Shown: one piece after another, positions 4,653 through 64,000 of the stretch
Position numbering within the stretch: the stretch's first letter is position 1
Layout of the letters: every line of letters begins with the position of its first letter
Source of the DNA: Sphingobacteriales bacterium
Lineage (GTDB): Bacteria; Bacteroidota; Bacteroidia; Chitinophagales; CAIOSU01
Assembly (NCBI GenBank): GCA_027486795.1
Contig: JAIXOI010000038.1
Location: 1 to 64,000 of the forward strand
Direction of reading: 5' to 3'
DNA: 64,000 bases
Translations under genes and position numbers: made by a program
The notes under the pieces: generated by a model
What the model was told of the DNA's origin: nothing
Seen by the model: the letters and a program-made list of their open reading frames with translations, nothing else
The model's database searches: none

Positions 4653-4687
4653 TACTTGATACTTGATACTCAATACTTGATACTGAA
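4653..4687. repeat. Heptamer tandem array touching a start codon
   Basis: Five 7-bp units: TACTTGA / TACTTGA / TACTCAA / TACTTGA / TACTGAA. The last base is directly followed by the ATG of the EVE-domain gene, so the whole ribosome-binding region of that gene is made of repeat. Confidence 0.8.
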
Positions 4688-5096: not shown

Positions 5097-5117
5097 CAGT
5101 CCACGGTCCACAGTCCA
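5097..5117. repeat. Heptamer tandem array after the EVE gene
   Basis: Three units: CAGTCCA / CGGTCCA / CAGTCCA. The same CAGTCCA unit is used at 30032-30059, 25 kb away. Confidence 0.7.
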
Positions 5118-5149
5118 CAGCTGGATTATGTGATTTAGCCATAATGATT

Positions 5150-8059: not shown

Positions 8060-8088
8060 AATTTGTTAATTTGAAGATTTGAAAATGG
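8060..8088. repeat. Octamer tandem array, solo
   Basis: Units AATTTGTT / AATTTGAA / GATTTGAA / AATGG. It has the same style and period as the inverted ends around the four-helix-bundle gene at 28694-29161, but no such gene is here, so it may be a solo end. Confidence 0.5.
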
Positions 8089-27247: not shown

Positions 27248-28696
27248 ATGAGGAATAGTAAATTGCTTGATATTATTCAATTGCTGACACCTAAAGAACG
27301 ATTTAGGTTGCAGGAGTTAGTATATTCTCCATACTATAACAAGCACCAAAACAGCCAAAAACTCCTAAGCTACTTGCTGGAAATTATTGATACCGATGCC
27401 GACAGCGTTTTGTATAGCAAAGAGGCGGCATTTGCACATTTGTTCCCTAATGAGTCTTATGATGTACAACGGATTAAAGATGTAATGAGTTTGCTTACCA
27501 AGCTGGTAGAGCAATACCTGCAATTGGTAAATTATGAAAAAGAGCCCATTGCGGGGCAATTATATCTGCTGCGTGAGCTTAGGAGCCGCAATGCCGGAAA
27601 GTACTTTGAGCAAGCCGAACGCCTAATGCGCCAGAGCCTAGAAAAAACCAAAGACGATAGCGAACGACACCGCTGGGGCTTTGAACTGGAGAGCGAGGCA
27701 GATACCTATTTTATGTCTCAATCGGCAAGGGCGCAGCATGAAAGCATCCAGCATCGCTCCAATCATTTGGATAGGTATTATTTGCTAAACAAGCTCAGGG
27801 TAAGCTGCGAAATGATAAACCGCAGCAACATTGTTAAGGTGAAATACGAGATGCCTTTTTTGGATGAAGCTTGTCAGCACTTGGATGCGCATCCCGAACT
27901 GTATGCCGATGAAAAACTGTTGTTGGCCTACTACCGCATACTTAAAGCCTTAATCGAACCCGACAACGAAGCTCATTACATTGCCTTAATAGATTACCTA
28001 AACGATAACGTAATGGCTTTTGATGCCAACGAGGCCCGTGGCATGTATGATTATGCCAAGAACTACTGCATCAAGAAAATAAACAGCGGCAAAAGCGAGT
28101 ACTTGCAGCGTTTGTTTGAGGTATACAAAGCCTTGCTGCACAACAAGGTCATCTATCAAAATGGCATACTCACCGAGTGGGATTACAAGAACATTGTAAC
28201 CGTTGCCACGCGCCAAAAGGAGTACGATTGGTGCCACGAGTTTATAGAATACAACCGCCCCTTGCTTGACCCTGCCCAACGCGACAATGCTTATACCTAC
28301 AACCTGGCCATGTTGCATTACAGCCGCAACCAACTAAAGGAGGCCATGACCTTGCTTCGCGATGTAGAGTTTACCGACCTTTATTACGGTTTAGGTGCAA
28401 AAACCACGCTACTGAAAACCTACTACGAACTGGACGAACTGGATGCGTTTTTTAATATGATCGATACGTTCCGAACTTTCCTAAAGCGCAACAAGCTTAT
28501 CAGCGAGTATCAGTTTAAGGTAAATAGCAATCTCTTAAAGTTTGCCAAAAAACTAGCCACGCTCAAAAACAAGAAGGGCGTAATTTCCAACAATGCCTTT
28601 GAAAAAGAGCTGCAAGCCCTCCGAAAAGCTATTACCTCAACCAAGGAAATAACGAATGTAGATTGGCTGAAACAGAAGATGGGGGAGCTGAGTTAA
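27248..28696 (+). CDS. Conserved helical protein of unknown function
   Basis: 482 residues, no signal peptide. It is rich in Leu, Tyr, Glu and Arg with repeated helix pairs ('LLDPAQRDNAYTYNLAMLHY', 'ELDELDAFFNMIDTFRTFL') that look like TPR-type solenoid helices. I recall similar ~480-residue proteins in Bacteroidota but know no function. The stop codon TAA is itself the first three bases of the octamer inverted repeat that bounds the four-helix-bundle cassette. Confidence 0.75.
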   Translation: MRNSKLLDIIQLLTPKERFRLQELVYSPYYNKHQNSQKLLSYLLEIIDTDADSVLYSKEAAFAHLFPNESYDVQRIKDVMSLLTKLVEQYLQLVNYEKEPIAGQLYLLRELRSRNAGKYFEQAERLMRQSLEKTKDDSERHRWGFELESEADTYFMSQSARAQHESIQHRSNHLDRYYLLNKLRVSCEMINRSNIVKVKYEMPFLDEACQHLDAHPELYADEKLLLAYYRILKALIEPDNEAHYIALIDYLNDNVMAFDANEARGMYDYAKNYCIKKINSGKSEYLQRLFEVYKALLHNKVIYQNGILTEWDYKNIVTVATRQKEYDWCHEFIEYNRPLLDPAQRDNAYTYNLAMLHYSRNQLKEAMTLLRDVEFTDLYYGLGAKTTLLKTYYELDELDAFFNMIDTFRTFLKRNKLISEYQFKVNSNLLKFAKKLATLKNKKGVISNNAFEKELQALRKAITSTKEITNVDWLKQKMGELS

Positions 28697-29161
28697 TTTG
28701 GAAATTTGGAAATGTGTTAATTTGGAAATGGGAATTCAATTATTTTAAGTTAAATAGACTTTATGAGAGGAGATAAAGAAAACCCAATAGTGAGTATCAC
28801 TTTTACTTTTGCTCTTGAAATAATTCGGTTTTGCGAGGAGCTGGAAAATAACAGGAAGTTTGTTATCTCAAAGCAATTATTAAAGTCTGGAACCTCAATA
28901 GGTGCGCAGGTTCGTGAAGCGCAGAATGCCGAAAGTAGAGCTGATTTTGTTCATAAAATGAAAATTGCAGCAAAGGAATGTGACGAAACAATATATTGGC
29001 TCAGCTTGTGTAAAGAAGCCTATCCATTAGCTAACTGTGACATCCTAATTGCCAAGGCTAAGGAAATTACTTTGATACTCTCCAAAATCATTTCAACTTC
29101 GAAAAAATCATTGTAGCATTTTTCCATTTTCAAATTGGTACATTTCCAAATTTCCAAATTA
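28694..29161. mobile_element. Candidate cassette: four-helix-bundle gene between 41-bp inverted ends
   Basis: 28694-28734 and 29121-29161 are inverted copies, 36 of 41 positions identical by my alignment. Each end is an 8-bp tandem array (units AATTTGGA / AATTTGGA / AATGTGTT / AATTTGGA). Between them is only the gene at 28763-29116. The left end overlaps the stop codon of the previous gene and the right end stops 40 bases before the next start. Similar single arrays without a gene are at 8060-8088. Mobility is inferred from the structure. Confidence 0.6.
28763..29116 (+). CDS. Four-helix-bundle protein (23S rRNA intervening-sequence family)
   Basis: 117 residues. The family pattern is clear: 'FALEIIRFCEEL', 'VISKQLLKSGTSIGAQVREA' with 'QNAESRADFVHKM', 'AAKECDETIYWL', and a Leu/Ile-rich last helix. 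Relatives include proteins encoded in intervening sequences of 23S rRNA genes and the Avd accessory protein of diversity-generating retroelements, which bind nucleic acid through a basic pentameric surface. The stand-alone role is unknown. No rRNA or retroelement is near; instead the gene is tightly enclosed by inverted octamer arrays. Confidence 0.9.
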   Translation: MRGDKENPIVSITFTFALEIIRFCEELENNRKFVISKQLLKSGTSIGAQVREAQNAESRADFVHKMKIAAKECDETIYWLSLCKEAYPLANCDILIAKAKEITLILSKIISTSKKSL

Positions 29162-29201
29162 TCATTTGGTATTTTTGCCAAAGCAACAACCAACACCCAT
29201 C

Positions 29202-30029
29202 ATGACCTTATACACCCGCGAGCAAGCATTGCAATTAAAACAACAGACTTTTGCTTACCTAAAAGTGGAGGAGCACGATCATGTGCTTACCATGACCTTG
29301 AACCGCCCCGAAAAGAAAAATGCCATGAACCCGGTGTTCATGAACGAGATAGTATATACCTTGAACTATGCCCATTACAATAATGATGTGTGGGCGGTGG
29401 TGTTGCGCGCCGAGGGTAATGTATTTTGTGCCGGTGCCGATTTAAAATCGTTTGCTGGCCAAGGTGCTGATGCGCCCGTAAGCACCATACCCGAGCCATC
29501 GCATGGTGCCGTATTGGGCGATGCGTTCAATGGTTTGCACAAGCCTTGCATTGCCCGTGTGCATGGCAACGTTTATGCTGGTGGGTTTTTGTTGGTATGT
29601 GGCTGCACCCACGTAATTGTAGCCGAAGGCGTGCAATTCAGTTTGCCAGAAGTGAAGCGCGGTATTTGGCCCATGCAGGTAATGGCTAGTTTGAAACCGA
29701 TAATGCCCGCCCGCAAGTTGTTAGACTTATGTATGCGTGCCCGCGCCATTGAAGCTGCCGAAGCATTAGAGCTTGGCCTAGCCACCCAAGTGGTAGCTGC
29801 CGATAAGCTGGACGAAGCGGTAGTTGGCCTGGTAGCCGAGTTGAAAACCCTAAGCCCAACGGCCATCCGTTTAGGTTTGAAAGCTTGGAATGAATTGAAA
29901 TCGGTGCCAGAGGCAGAACACCATCCCTATCTAATTAGCCAATTGCAAGAGATTCTGGGCACCCAAGATGCCGCCGAAGGTTTGACCGCCTTCATAGAAA
30001 AACGCCCTCCGGTGTGGACGGGGAAGTAG
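29202..30029 (+). CDS. Enoyl-CoA hydratase/isomerase family protein
   Basis: 275 residues from the ATG at 29202 (MTLYTREQALQLKQQTF); an earlier in-frame start at 29166 runs through repeat-like DNA. Crotonase fold signatures: 'MTLNRPEKKNAMNPVF', oxyanion-hole segments 'FCAGADLKSF' and 'VYAGGFLLVCGCTHVIV', and 'FSLPEVKRGIWP', where the Glu is a usual catalytic position. It hydrates or isomerises enoyl-CoA in fatty or amino acid breakdown; the exact substrate is unclear. 83 bases of heptamer arrays separate it from folD. Confidence 0.88.
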   Translation: MTLYTREQALQLKQQTFAYLKVEEHDHVLTMTLNRPEKKNAMNPVFMNEIVYTLNYAHYNNDVWAVVLRAEGNVFCAGADLKSFAGQGADAPVSTIPEPSHGAVLGDAFNGLHKPCIARVHGNVYAGGFLLVCGCTHVIVAEGVQFSLPEVKRGIWPMQVMASLKPIMPARKLLDLCMRARAIEAAEALELGLATQVVAADKLDEAVVGLVAELKTLSPTAIRLGLKAWNELKSVPEAEHHPYLISQLQEILGTQDAAEGLTAFIEKRPPVWTGK

Positions 30030-30031
30030 AT

Positions 30032-30059
30032 TGGTCCACAGTCCATAGTCGATAGTCCA
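30032..30059. repeat. Heptamer array (CAGTCCA family)
   Basis: Units TGGTCCA / CAGTCCA / TAGTCGA / TAGTCCA, starting two bases after the hydratase stop. It shares CAGTCCA with 5097-5117. Confidence 0.7.
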
Positions 30060-30069
30060 TAGAAAAATG

Positions 30070-30104
30070 ATAACCAATAACTAATAACCAATAACCAATA
30101 ACTA
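30070..30104. repeat. Heptamer array (ATAACCA family)
   Basis: Five units: ATAACCA / ATAACTA / ATAACCA / ATAACCA / ATAACTA, ending 8 bases before the folD start. ATAACCA recurs at 61762-61775. Confidence 0.8.
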
Positions 30105-32282: not shown

Positions 32283-32289
32283 GGTAGCA

Positions 32290-32324
32290 AATTGAAAATT
32301 TAAAATTTAAAATTCAAAATTGAA
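32290..32324. repeat. Heptamer array (AATTNAA family)
   Basis: Five units: AATTGAA / AATTTAA / AATTTAA / AATTCAA / AATTGAA, between the divergent NRDE and acs genes, so it lies in both promoter regions. Confidence 0.8.
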
Positions 32325-62562: not shown

Positions 62563-64000
62563 ATGAGAAACGTTAACTTATTCTCGGTTGCAACCACAGC
62601 CCCGCCATCGTGGCCGGAGAAATTAACAAGAACGAAAAAAACCTTTTCGGTCTTAGCAGGAATCGCATTCCTGCTATTGTTGTTTGTGGCGCCTACTAAC
62701 CTTATGTCGCAATGTGCCTACCCGAACTGGGCCGGGCAAGGAACTACTTATTTTTTGAGTCAGCCTACTCGAGTTCCGTGTGGTTCATTCTCGCCAAACC
62801 AAAGTGTAGGTAGTGGTACGTACAACTATTGGTATGCTTACAATGGTATAAGCTATACCGTAAGTACATGTGGTACTTCGTTTGATACACAAATAACAGT
62901 GTATGACGAAAACCCAGGATGGACGAGGAAAGCCTATCAAGATGATAACGGCCCAGCTTGTACTGGTAACAATGGATCGACAACATTTACCTCAACGTAC
63001 ACGGGTAACCATCTTGCTGTTGTTAACCGCTTTTCTTGTCAAAACCATGACTTTACAGGTGTTTCGGCAGTATTGTCAATTCGTGAAAACCTTGGCGCCG
63101 CTCCAGGCACGCCTTCAGGTGGTGGTTCGTTTTGTGCTGCTAGCGCTACACTTACCCGTGCTGCAGGCCCACCAACAGGTTATACTTACTATTGGCAAAA
63201 TACCTCTGGTGGTACCAGCACCGCTTTAGGTAGTGGCGCAACTTATAACGTAACTACTACAGGTACCTATTATCTTCGTCCACTAAGTACAAATGGATGT
63301 TGGGGCGATCAGAGTAGCGGTGTAGCTGTTACACTTAACCCAGATGCAGGTGCTACTACCGTAACTGGTGGCACTACCCAGTGCGGTGGCACGGTTACGC
63401 TTAATGCATCAGGTGGTAGTGGTGGTACTATATACTACCAAGGTACTACATCTGGAGGTACCAGCACCGCAACGCCAGCTACAAGTATTGGAATAACTTC
63501 AACAGGCACTTATTATTTCCGTGCCCGCACGGCTGCTGGCTGTTGGGGCACTGAAGGTAGCCAAGCGGTTACTATCAATTCGGTTCCTGCAGCGGTAAGC
63601 GTAAATGGTGGTACTACCCAATGCGGTGGTTCAGTAACTTTAACCGCTTCTGGTGGTGCTGGTGGTACCATTTACTACCAAGGTACTACTTCTGGTGGCA
63701 CTAGCACCGCTACGGCATCAACCAGTCAAAGCGTATCCTCTTCTGGAACGTATTATTTTAATTCTCGCAGCGCACAAGGCTGTTGGGGTCCTCAAGGTAG
63801 TTCTGCTGTTACCATCAATACAGTACCTGGTAGCATCAGCGTAGCAGGCGGCGGTACTTTCTGTGGCGGCTCAACTACCTTAACTGCTACCGGCGGTTCA
63901 GGCGGTACTATTTACTATCAAGGCACAGATCCAAGCGGCACCAGCACATCATTGGGCGGCGCATCTGCTACCGTATCTGTCACGGGTGCATATTACTTCC
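62563..64000 (+). CDS. Adhesin-like surface protein with 80-residue repeats (3' end beyond window)
   Basis: 479 codons are visible with no stop. From the ATG at 62563: a basic N-terminal extension (to 'PEKLTRTKKTFSVL'), a hydrophobic core 'AGIAFLLLLFVAPTNLMS' and CAYPNW, so an extended signal peptide; an in-frame ATG at 62524 adds 13 residues. An N-terminal domain with 'YAYNGISYTVSTCGTSFDTQ' resembles a PPC-type module. Then repeats of exactly 80 residues (240 bases; GGTTQCGG at 63367, 63607, with a variant at 63847), each with two Cys and 'GGTIYYQGTTSGGTSTAT'. A T9SS sorting domain is expected at the unseen end. Confidence 0.8.
   Translation, partial: MRNVNLFSVATTAPPSWPEKLTRTKKTFSVLAGIAFLLLLFVAPTNLMSQCAYPNWAGQGTTYFLSQPTRVPCGSFSPNQSVGSGTYNYWYAYNGISYTVSTCGTSFDTQITVYDENPGWTRKAYQDDNGPACTGNNGSTTFTSTYTGNHLAVVNRFSCQNHDFTGVSAVLSIRENLGAAPGTPSGGGSFCAASATLTRAAGPPTGYTYYWQNTSGGTSTALGSGATYNVTTTGTYYLRPLSTNGCWGDQSSGVAVTLNPDAGATTVTGGTTQCGGTVTLNASGGSGGTIYYQGTTSGGTSTATPATSIGITSTGTYYFRARTAAGCWGTEGSQAVTINSVPAAVSVNGGTTQCGGSVTLTASGGAGGTIYYQGTTSGGTSTATASTSQSVSSSGTYYFNSRSAQGCWGPQGSSAVTINTVPGSISVAGGGTFCGGSTTLTATGGSGGTIYYQGTDPSGTSTSLGGASATVSVTGAYYF

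Follow-up and report, generated by a model that had tools for sequence, protein, structure and literature searches.

The window analyzed here, the first 64,000 nt of contig C17 (C17:1-64000) in the genome of a Sphingobacteriales bacterium (G000; 3.9 Mb, 59 contigs), contains a gene for a small four-helix-bundle protein of the rRNA intervening-sequence protein (IVP) family, which is best known from insertions in the rRNA of bacteria. Two inverted arrays of 8-bp repeats enclose the gene. Comparison with related genomes and with other phyla showed that gene and arrays (arms) form a unit, here called a cassette, which is distributed patchily, lies mostly in sense orientation and has ends that diverge fast yet match each other. 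This architecture is tied to IVP genes across several phyla, and solo arrays have similar units. We consider it rather probable that the locus is a copy of a small selfish element, consisting solely of an IVP gene with an inverted, polar 7- to 8-bp array at either end, and that it is the free-standing counterpart of the intervening sequences (IVS) of rRNA.

The two arms of the window cassette are 41 nt each, complementary at 36 of 41 positions (88%) and separated by 386 nt (Table 1). Tandem Repeats Finder (TRF) assigned a period of 8 to both, with 4.4 copies of AATTTGGA at 28695-28729 and 2.4 copies of ATTTCCAA at 29142-29160. Their inverted-arm score of 62 was reached by none of 2000 dinucleotide shuffles (mean, 22.6; maximum, 38). 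As the original prediction had stated, the arrays extend from the stop codon of the preceding gene, whose TAA (28694-28696) forms the first bases of the left arm, to shortly before the next gene, a crotonase whose ATG (29202) follows the right arm after 40 nt. The description of the enclosed protein as a relative of rRNA intervening-sequence proteins that comes without a transposase was also confirmed: the sole long open reading frame (ORF) between the arms matched only PF05635 (23S_rRNA_IVP, four-helix-bundle; E = 3.3e-20) in Pfam, which left no Y1 transposase between the repeats, and TIGR02436 (E = 6.9e-25) together with a sub-cut-off match to NF008912 in NCBIfam. The closest solved structure by sequence was 2rld_A (E = 1e-21; five chains, one entry). 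No defense or phage family was indicated by PADLOC or PHROGs matches up to E = 0.01, and no known RNA family or rRNA gene by Rfam matches up to E = 0.1 in 28400-29500.

G000 has five PF05635 genes, all flanked on both sides by inverted repeats whose unit differs from locus to locus: AATTTGGA (C17), TGTACCAA (C38), AAAATTGAAAATTC (C11), GTACGA (C30), and a GAGATGACAAATAAC-type unit on C21, where the arm (score 42) is the least array-like of the five. The proposal that AATTTGGA itself could serve as a signature of such genes was therefore not upheld; the traits in common are a period of 7 to 8, the inverted layout and a C-poor strand when the arms are read inward.

For a comparison within the order, 263 loci gave 139 IVP genes with full flanks, which formed 128 clusters at 80% identity; this set includes some broken ORFs (e.g., L056 and L063), and PF05635 was present in 52 of the 60 genomes of the order, G000 included. 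An inverted-arm score of at least 30 was found for 91 of 128 IVP genes versus 124 of 1409 ORFs not adjacent to them (Fisher, 4e-56), and a score of at least 36 for 68 of 128 versus 33 of 1409 (Fisher, 5e-57), so that unrelated genes do not carry such arms equally often; equal frequencies would have spoken against the original prediction. ORFs adjacent to IVP genes (41 of 268 at 30 or more, 15 of 268 at 36 or more) were scored apart because they can share the IVP arrays. In direct orientation, 24 of 128 IVP genes reached 30. When arms of different IVP loci were paired randomly, 7.8% of 16256 pairs reached 30, and the match is therefore one between the two arms of the same locus. Heptad-type arms accounted for 59 of the 68 IVP hits at 36 or more versus 9 of the 33 control hits. 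Chance pairing of AT-rich intergenic DNA has in our judgment practically no probability: arms in this order are indeed AT-rich, but the shuffles and the 1409 control ORFs refute this explanation, as do arms rich in GC, for instance ACGGTGG in a Planctomycetota metagenome-assembled genome (MAG) and AAGTCGC on a Nostoc plasmid.

Other small gene families were scored in the same way. Among ORF6N genes (29 of 30 loci used; L312, under the cut-off, omitted), 2 of 29 reached 30 and none of 29 reached 36 in inverted orientation. GIY-YIG genes (28 of 30 loci used, 27 scored; L277 and L283, with ORFs over 900 aa, omitted) had to be rejected as a negative control, as they turned out to be associated with repeats themselves: 6 of 27 reached 36 in inverted and 14 of 27 in direct orientation. 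GIY-YIG genes at L040 (~6881, plus strand), L264, L267, L269, L278 and L286 are enclosed by long repeats of dispersed occurrence, among them GTCATCCTGAGCCTGTCGAAGG and GTCATTGCGA, which looks like a separate single-gene repeat system. From reading the sequences, we take the strongest controls to be other single-gene repeat systems as well: RAYT genes, which encode a Y1 transposase with one repeat family, GIY-YIG genes, one DUF1016-like and one AAA-ATPase gene. The presumed DUF1016-like gene (L066, 7391-8485) lies between inverted 7- to 8-bp arrays of TAGTTATTAGTTGTGAG (score 64), and this second family may share the array ends described here. The presumed AAA-ATPase-like gene (L185, 16333-17487) is flanked by a near-perfect inverted repeat of the palindrome GACAAATTCGGAATCTAATTCCGAATTTGTC (score 83.5).

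The architecture was not confined to the order. Named genomes yielded 80 loci on scanning. Of these, 77 were scored (L337, L407 and L408 skipped), and 63 reached 30: 49 of 62 labeled Bacteroidota or Ignavibacteria and 14 of 15 labeled as other phyla. Some of the latter are short MAG contigs, for which mis-binning is possible; none of these 15 loci showed rRNA. Seven of 25 complete plasmid records with an IVP match were examined (six Nostocales, one Treponema), and all seven loci had inverted heptad arms with units such as AAGTCGC, GAGGTCGG and TAATTCG. The Treponema locus had a higher direct (90) than inverted (57) score because both array orientations precede the gene. On a plasmid of Nostoc sp. 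TCL26-01, an IVP cassette (L427, 2489-2845) lies antisense between cas2 and cas1. A legend in a CRISPR survey (PMC10910872) lists 23S rRNA IVP among its abbreviations, and insertions like L427 might account for that entry.

The arms share a polar composition. The best period in 82 cassettes of the order was 7 in 33, 14 in 23 and 8, as in the window, in 18. Read inward, G exceeded C in 75 left arms (4 showed the reverse) and in 73 right arms (6 the reverse); the 56 cassettes from named genomes gave 50 versus 4 and 47 versus 9, respectively. The C content of inward-read arms was 8-9%, compared to 18% in control flanks. On the sense strand the left arm is thus C-poor and the right arm G-poor, which argues against transcription-linked deamination as the explanation. 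Median arm similarity between loci fell with protein identity, from.83 at 90% or more (n = 7) to.39 at 70-90 (n = 12),.32 at 55-70 (n = 156),.29 at 45-55 (n = 458) and.24 below 45 (n = 2534). Two loci of one genome, L062 and L064, have proteins that are 83% identical and an arm similarity of.90. Net positive charge was found for 114 of the 128 IVP proteins (median, +3) and 229 of 433 small controls (median, +1); it is compatible with nucleic-acid binding.

Strand counts covered, for the order, a single representative of each locus (121 of 128), together with 26 of 29 ORF6N genes, 19 of 25 GIY-YIG genes and 68 of 80 named loci, with L336, L337, L349, L352, L355, L357, L360, L367, L382, L389, L403 and L408 omitted by hand. 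The IVP gene was on the strand of the preceding gene at 112 of 121 order and 67 of 68 named loci (ordinary ORFs, 918 of 1249) and on that of both neighbors at 103 of 121 and 64 of 68 (ordinary ORFs, 702 of 1249). The corresponding numbers were 19 and 16 of 26 for ORF6N and 14 and 7 of 19 for GIY-YIG genes. On the plasmids, 5 of 7 IVP genes shared the strand of the preceding gene; L422 lies behind an opposite-strand transposase.

Three G000 cassettes sit at gene junctions which we take, from the sequences, to be scoA-scoB, paaB-paaC and aceB-aceA. Among 23 loci with scoA and scoB in line, 3 (G000, G002 and G003) contain an IVP gene, and in 12 of the 20 IVP-free loci the gap is at most 25 nt. 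At paaB-paaC, an IVP gene is present in 3 of 28 loci, with a gap of at most 25 nt in 18 of the 25 others. Of 15 rows for aceB-aceA, four (L171, L179, L180 and L181; downstream match 31-33% identical) were not counted toward this junction, leaving 11 comparable loci, 3 with an IVP gene and 5 of the other 8 with gaps of 36-65 nt. The same junction harbored different cassettes in sister species: at scoA-scoB, G000 has a TGTACCAA cassette, and G002 and G003 have a AATTTGAAAATG cassette with a different IVP; at paaB-paaC, G000 and G002 share AAAATTGAA arms, and G003 has GTTGCGA arms, again with a different IVP. The C21 site is occupied in G000 alone, G002 and G003 (upstream protein 99% identical) having unrelated filler. 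G014 carries an IVP gene immediately upstream of paaB, its arms being weak (score 28), and G024 has inverted heptad arms without an ORF at scoA-scoB, as judged by eye. G001, a member of the same genus, carries other repeats at scoA-scoB and paaB-paaC and a RAYT gene at aceB-aceA. At its paaB-paaC junction (L139) there are GTCATTGCGAGGAACGA-type inverted repeats where the sister species have IVP cassettes, and at its aceB-aceA junction (L169) the RAYT-like gene is accompanied by inverted repeats. A similar RAYT-like gene follows aceA in G000 (L039, 11962-12516), with the IVP cassette in the aceB-aceA junction. Insertions thus appear to land often at operon junctions in this genus.

The cassette of the window itself is present in G000, G003 and G002, where a contig end cuts it, and its first 90 nt are found in G004; G001 has no cassette at this site, and the next gene there also differs. 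The original prediction was supported in part. Its minimal mobile cassette has good support: the patchy gene-plus-arms unit at the four other sites of G000, where relatives include IVP-free states, the arms shared among close relatives and the association with the family speak for it, but the window site yielded no clean empty site in relatives. An ordinary host gene with fast-changing flanks that is inherited vertically and frequently lost would account for the copy common to G000, G002, G003 and, in part, G004. We nevertheless regard it as very improbable, given the tight junctions in so many IVP-free relatives and the different cassettes of sister species at one junction. Sense position inside operons also fits an mRNA-processing module, in which RNase III would cleave the stem that the arms form in the polycistronic transcript, to the benefit of the operon and not of the cassette. 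The predicted fold of the window transcript has the arms paired (z = -3.56), and according to PMC4990558, rRNA IVS are cut by RNase III. This explanation appears quite unlikely, since sister species have a different cassette or none at the same junction and the arms show no wobble excess. Selection on an RNA stem was accordingly rejected: wobble-compatible and wobble-incompatible transitions did not differ significantly at any of five thresholds (28, 32, 36, 40 and 50).

Arrays without a gene were common as well. Outside IVP surroundings (1857 kb) there were 73 arrays of period 7 and 20 of period 8; 72 of these 93 lay outside ORFs of at least 100 aa. Each of the remaining periods between 5 and 13 was represented by 0-14 arrays. 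Solo arrays (n = 130) resembled arms of their own genus (.479) more than random arms (.380; p = 9e-9), 47 of the 130 doing so at p <=.05, and the similarity also exceeded that to those own-genus arms in reversed form (.377; p = 8e-10). Array density was compared with IVP count on loci from 52 genomes, among them 6 of the 8 that lack IVP genes, at four score thresholds and with no kinship correction (Spearman p =.008,.011,.07 and.07); at the loosest threshold tried, 19 arrays were found in 162 kb from genomes with at least 4 IVP genes versus 2 in 230 kb from those with fewer (0-3). The possibility that solo arrays are remnants of 3' ends was discarded, as the G-rich strand was antisense in 37 versus 30 cases in the order and 22 versus 16 at named loci, with no clear bias. 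Table 1 includes seven solo arrays of the window, all of period 7. The one that the original prediction had placed at 8060 was weaker than these; it proved to be only a match with 3 mismatches to a 16-mer and was outside the 35 TRF rows scoring at least 30. A 240-bp tandem repeat (1.8 copies, 73% matches) is located at 63360-63800.

Table 1. Location of the IVP cassette, its neighboring genes and solo arrays in the window
Feature	Position	Strand	Remarks
Left arm, period-8 array of AATTTGGA units	28694..28734	+	Provides stop codon of upstream gene
IVP gene, 117 aa, PF05635 / TIGR02436 four helix bundle protein	28763..29116	+	
Right arm, inverted left arm (36/41)	29121..29161	-	
Upstream neighbor, 482 aa	27248..28696	+	Without match in Pfam or NCBIfam at E 0.001
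Downstream neighbor, enoyl-CoA hydratase/isomerase family (crotonase)	29202..30029	+	
Solo period-7 array TACTTGA	4653..4684		Poor own-genus arm match, 0.34
Solo period-7 array GTCCACG/GTCCACA	5099..5120		Closest own-genus arm L050, 0.68
Solo period-7 array GTACGAA	18098..18124		Closest own-genus arm L039, aceB-aceA cassette of G000, similarity 0.78
Solo period-7 array GTCCATA	30034..30062		Closest own-genus arm L050 of G004, 0.66
Solo period-7 array ATAACCA	30070..30102		Closest own-genus arm L049 of G004, 0.76
Solo period-7 array AAATTGAAAATTTA	32289..32321		Closest own-genus arm L042 of G002, 0.76; arms shared with G000 paaB-paaC cassette
Solo period-7 array ATTTGAA	34340..34369		Closest own-genus arm L047 of G003, 0.52

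The abundance of gene-free arrays could mean that the IVP gene is a passenger, i.e., that arrays spread or slip as repetitive extragenic palindromic (REP) sequences do and either carry the gene along as cargo or have trapped a host gene between two convergent copies. The inverted arrays around the DUF1016-like gene and the ORF-less ones of G024 fit this explanation. It is unlikely in our view, because arms are far more common at IVP genes than at other ORFs and are not a feature of ORF6N genes, and because arrays, at the loosest threshold tried, are denser where IVP copies are many.

In the selfish element that we favor, gene and arms would move together without an encoded transposase. The association suggests the IVP protein as the mobility factor: an IVP oligomer would recognize the array ends and recruit host enzymes. 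As copies lie nearly always in sense orientation inside operons, the operon transcript is probably an intermediate or the template of the mobile form; in this transcript the arms would close the ORF in one hairpin. A reverse transcriptase acting in trans was considered and rejected, PF00078 being present in 19 of the 60 genomes versus 52 for PF05635. Fold-back copying of one arm from the other would keep the arms alike and let the unit drift between copies while the arms still match, and solo arrays would be ends left behind. In our view, the lack of a G-U bias in the arm mismatches indicates that the arms are kept alike by such copying at the DNA level and not by selection for RNA pairing.

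Several observations weigh against this element. No movement was seen, and we infer mobility from sequence comparison. Among the relatives compared, no clean empty site at the nucleotide level was present, at the window site or elsewhere, and no target duplication was found, which without a clean empty site cannot be judged. To our knowledge, IVP proteins have no catalytic domain. Scores below 30 were obtained for 37 of the 128 order IVP genes and 14 of the 77 named loci, and 9 of the 33 control hits at 36 or more likewise had heptad-type arms. At two of the 7 plasmid loci, including the antisense cassette between cas2 and cas1, the preceding gene is on the opposite strand. The sense bias might also have a simple cause, namely that the IVP gene depends on read-through for its expression. 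Arm mismatches also showed no G-U-compatible excess (156 versus 162 at a score of at least 32).

Two old puzzles meet at this locus, the role of the IVP protein outside rRNA and the origin of intergenic heptamer arrays. If the proposed element is real, a class of mobile elements with locus-dependent ends is built around the common "four helix bundle protein," and ends that change at every locus would explain why the element is absent from repeat-family searches. A wider proposal, which we put forward tentatively and hold to be somewhat doubtful, is that IVP cassettes constitute a bacteria-wide, transposase-less mobile class with self-renewing inverted heptamer ends and an RNA-linked entry into operons in sense orientation, that rRNA IVS are copies that landed in rRNA, and that solo ends of such cassettes make up at least part of the heptamer repeats known from cyanobacteria, Xanthomonas and Beggiatoaceae. 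No link between free-standing IVP genes and heptamer arrays was found in the literature searched, which was mostly without subscription papers.

Compared to known systems, the cassette differs from DNA transposons and insertion sequences in having no transposase and in arms that are not constant but alike only between close relatives. REP/RAYT systems likewise combine a single gene between inverted repeats with dispersed repeat copies; the IVP cassette differs by a protein that, as far as we know, has no catalytic domain and by a repeat that changes with each locus. Avd of diversity-generating retroelements presumably belongs to a related four-helix-bundle family. No reverse transcriptase lies near the window cassette, however, and the single PF00078 match of G000 is on C40, not C17. 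On contig C24 of G021 (L239, L328), two IVP-family genes adjoin a reverse transcriptase, possibly a diversity-generating retroelement with Avd-type proteins.

The short tandemly repeated repetitive (STRR) sequences of cyanobacteria, of unknown function (PMC2670836), the GGGAATC arrays of Xanthomonas, with 70 and 75 convergent pairs in two genomes (PMC4692102), and the TAACTGA arrays of Beggiatoaceae, for whose transfer "no mechanism is evident" (PMC4679880), are intergenic with a period of 7, which is the best period in 33 of the 82 cassettes, the window arms having a period of 8; IVP arrays differ in forming the two ends of a gene cassette. In two of these papers, "four helix," "S23" and "intervening" are not mentioned. 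IVP ORFs have been described inside rRNA insertions of candidate phyla radiation (CPR) bacteria (PMC11270868). The Coxiella rRNA IVS has a 28-bp terminal stem and, before its S23p ORF, three tandem heptamers (GACAGAT) whose number varies by strain; the ORF has likely lost its function, and mobility of the IVS had been proposed earlier (PMC4990558), with the IVS ORF as a mobility component (Ralph and McClelland 1993, cited in PMC4990558). The cassette sites and arms described here provide material for testing that proposal. Unlike the rRNA IVS, the window cassette lies between protein genes and not in rRNA, and it has arrays on both sides with a locus-specific unit; what it shares with them is a protein of the same family (PF05635/S23p) and complementary ends that close the ORF.
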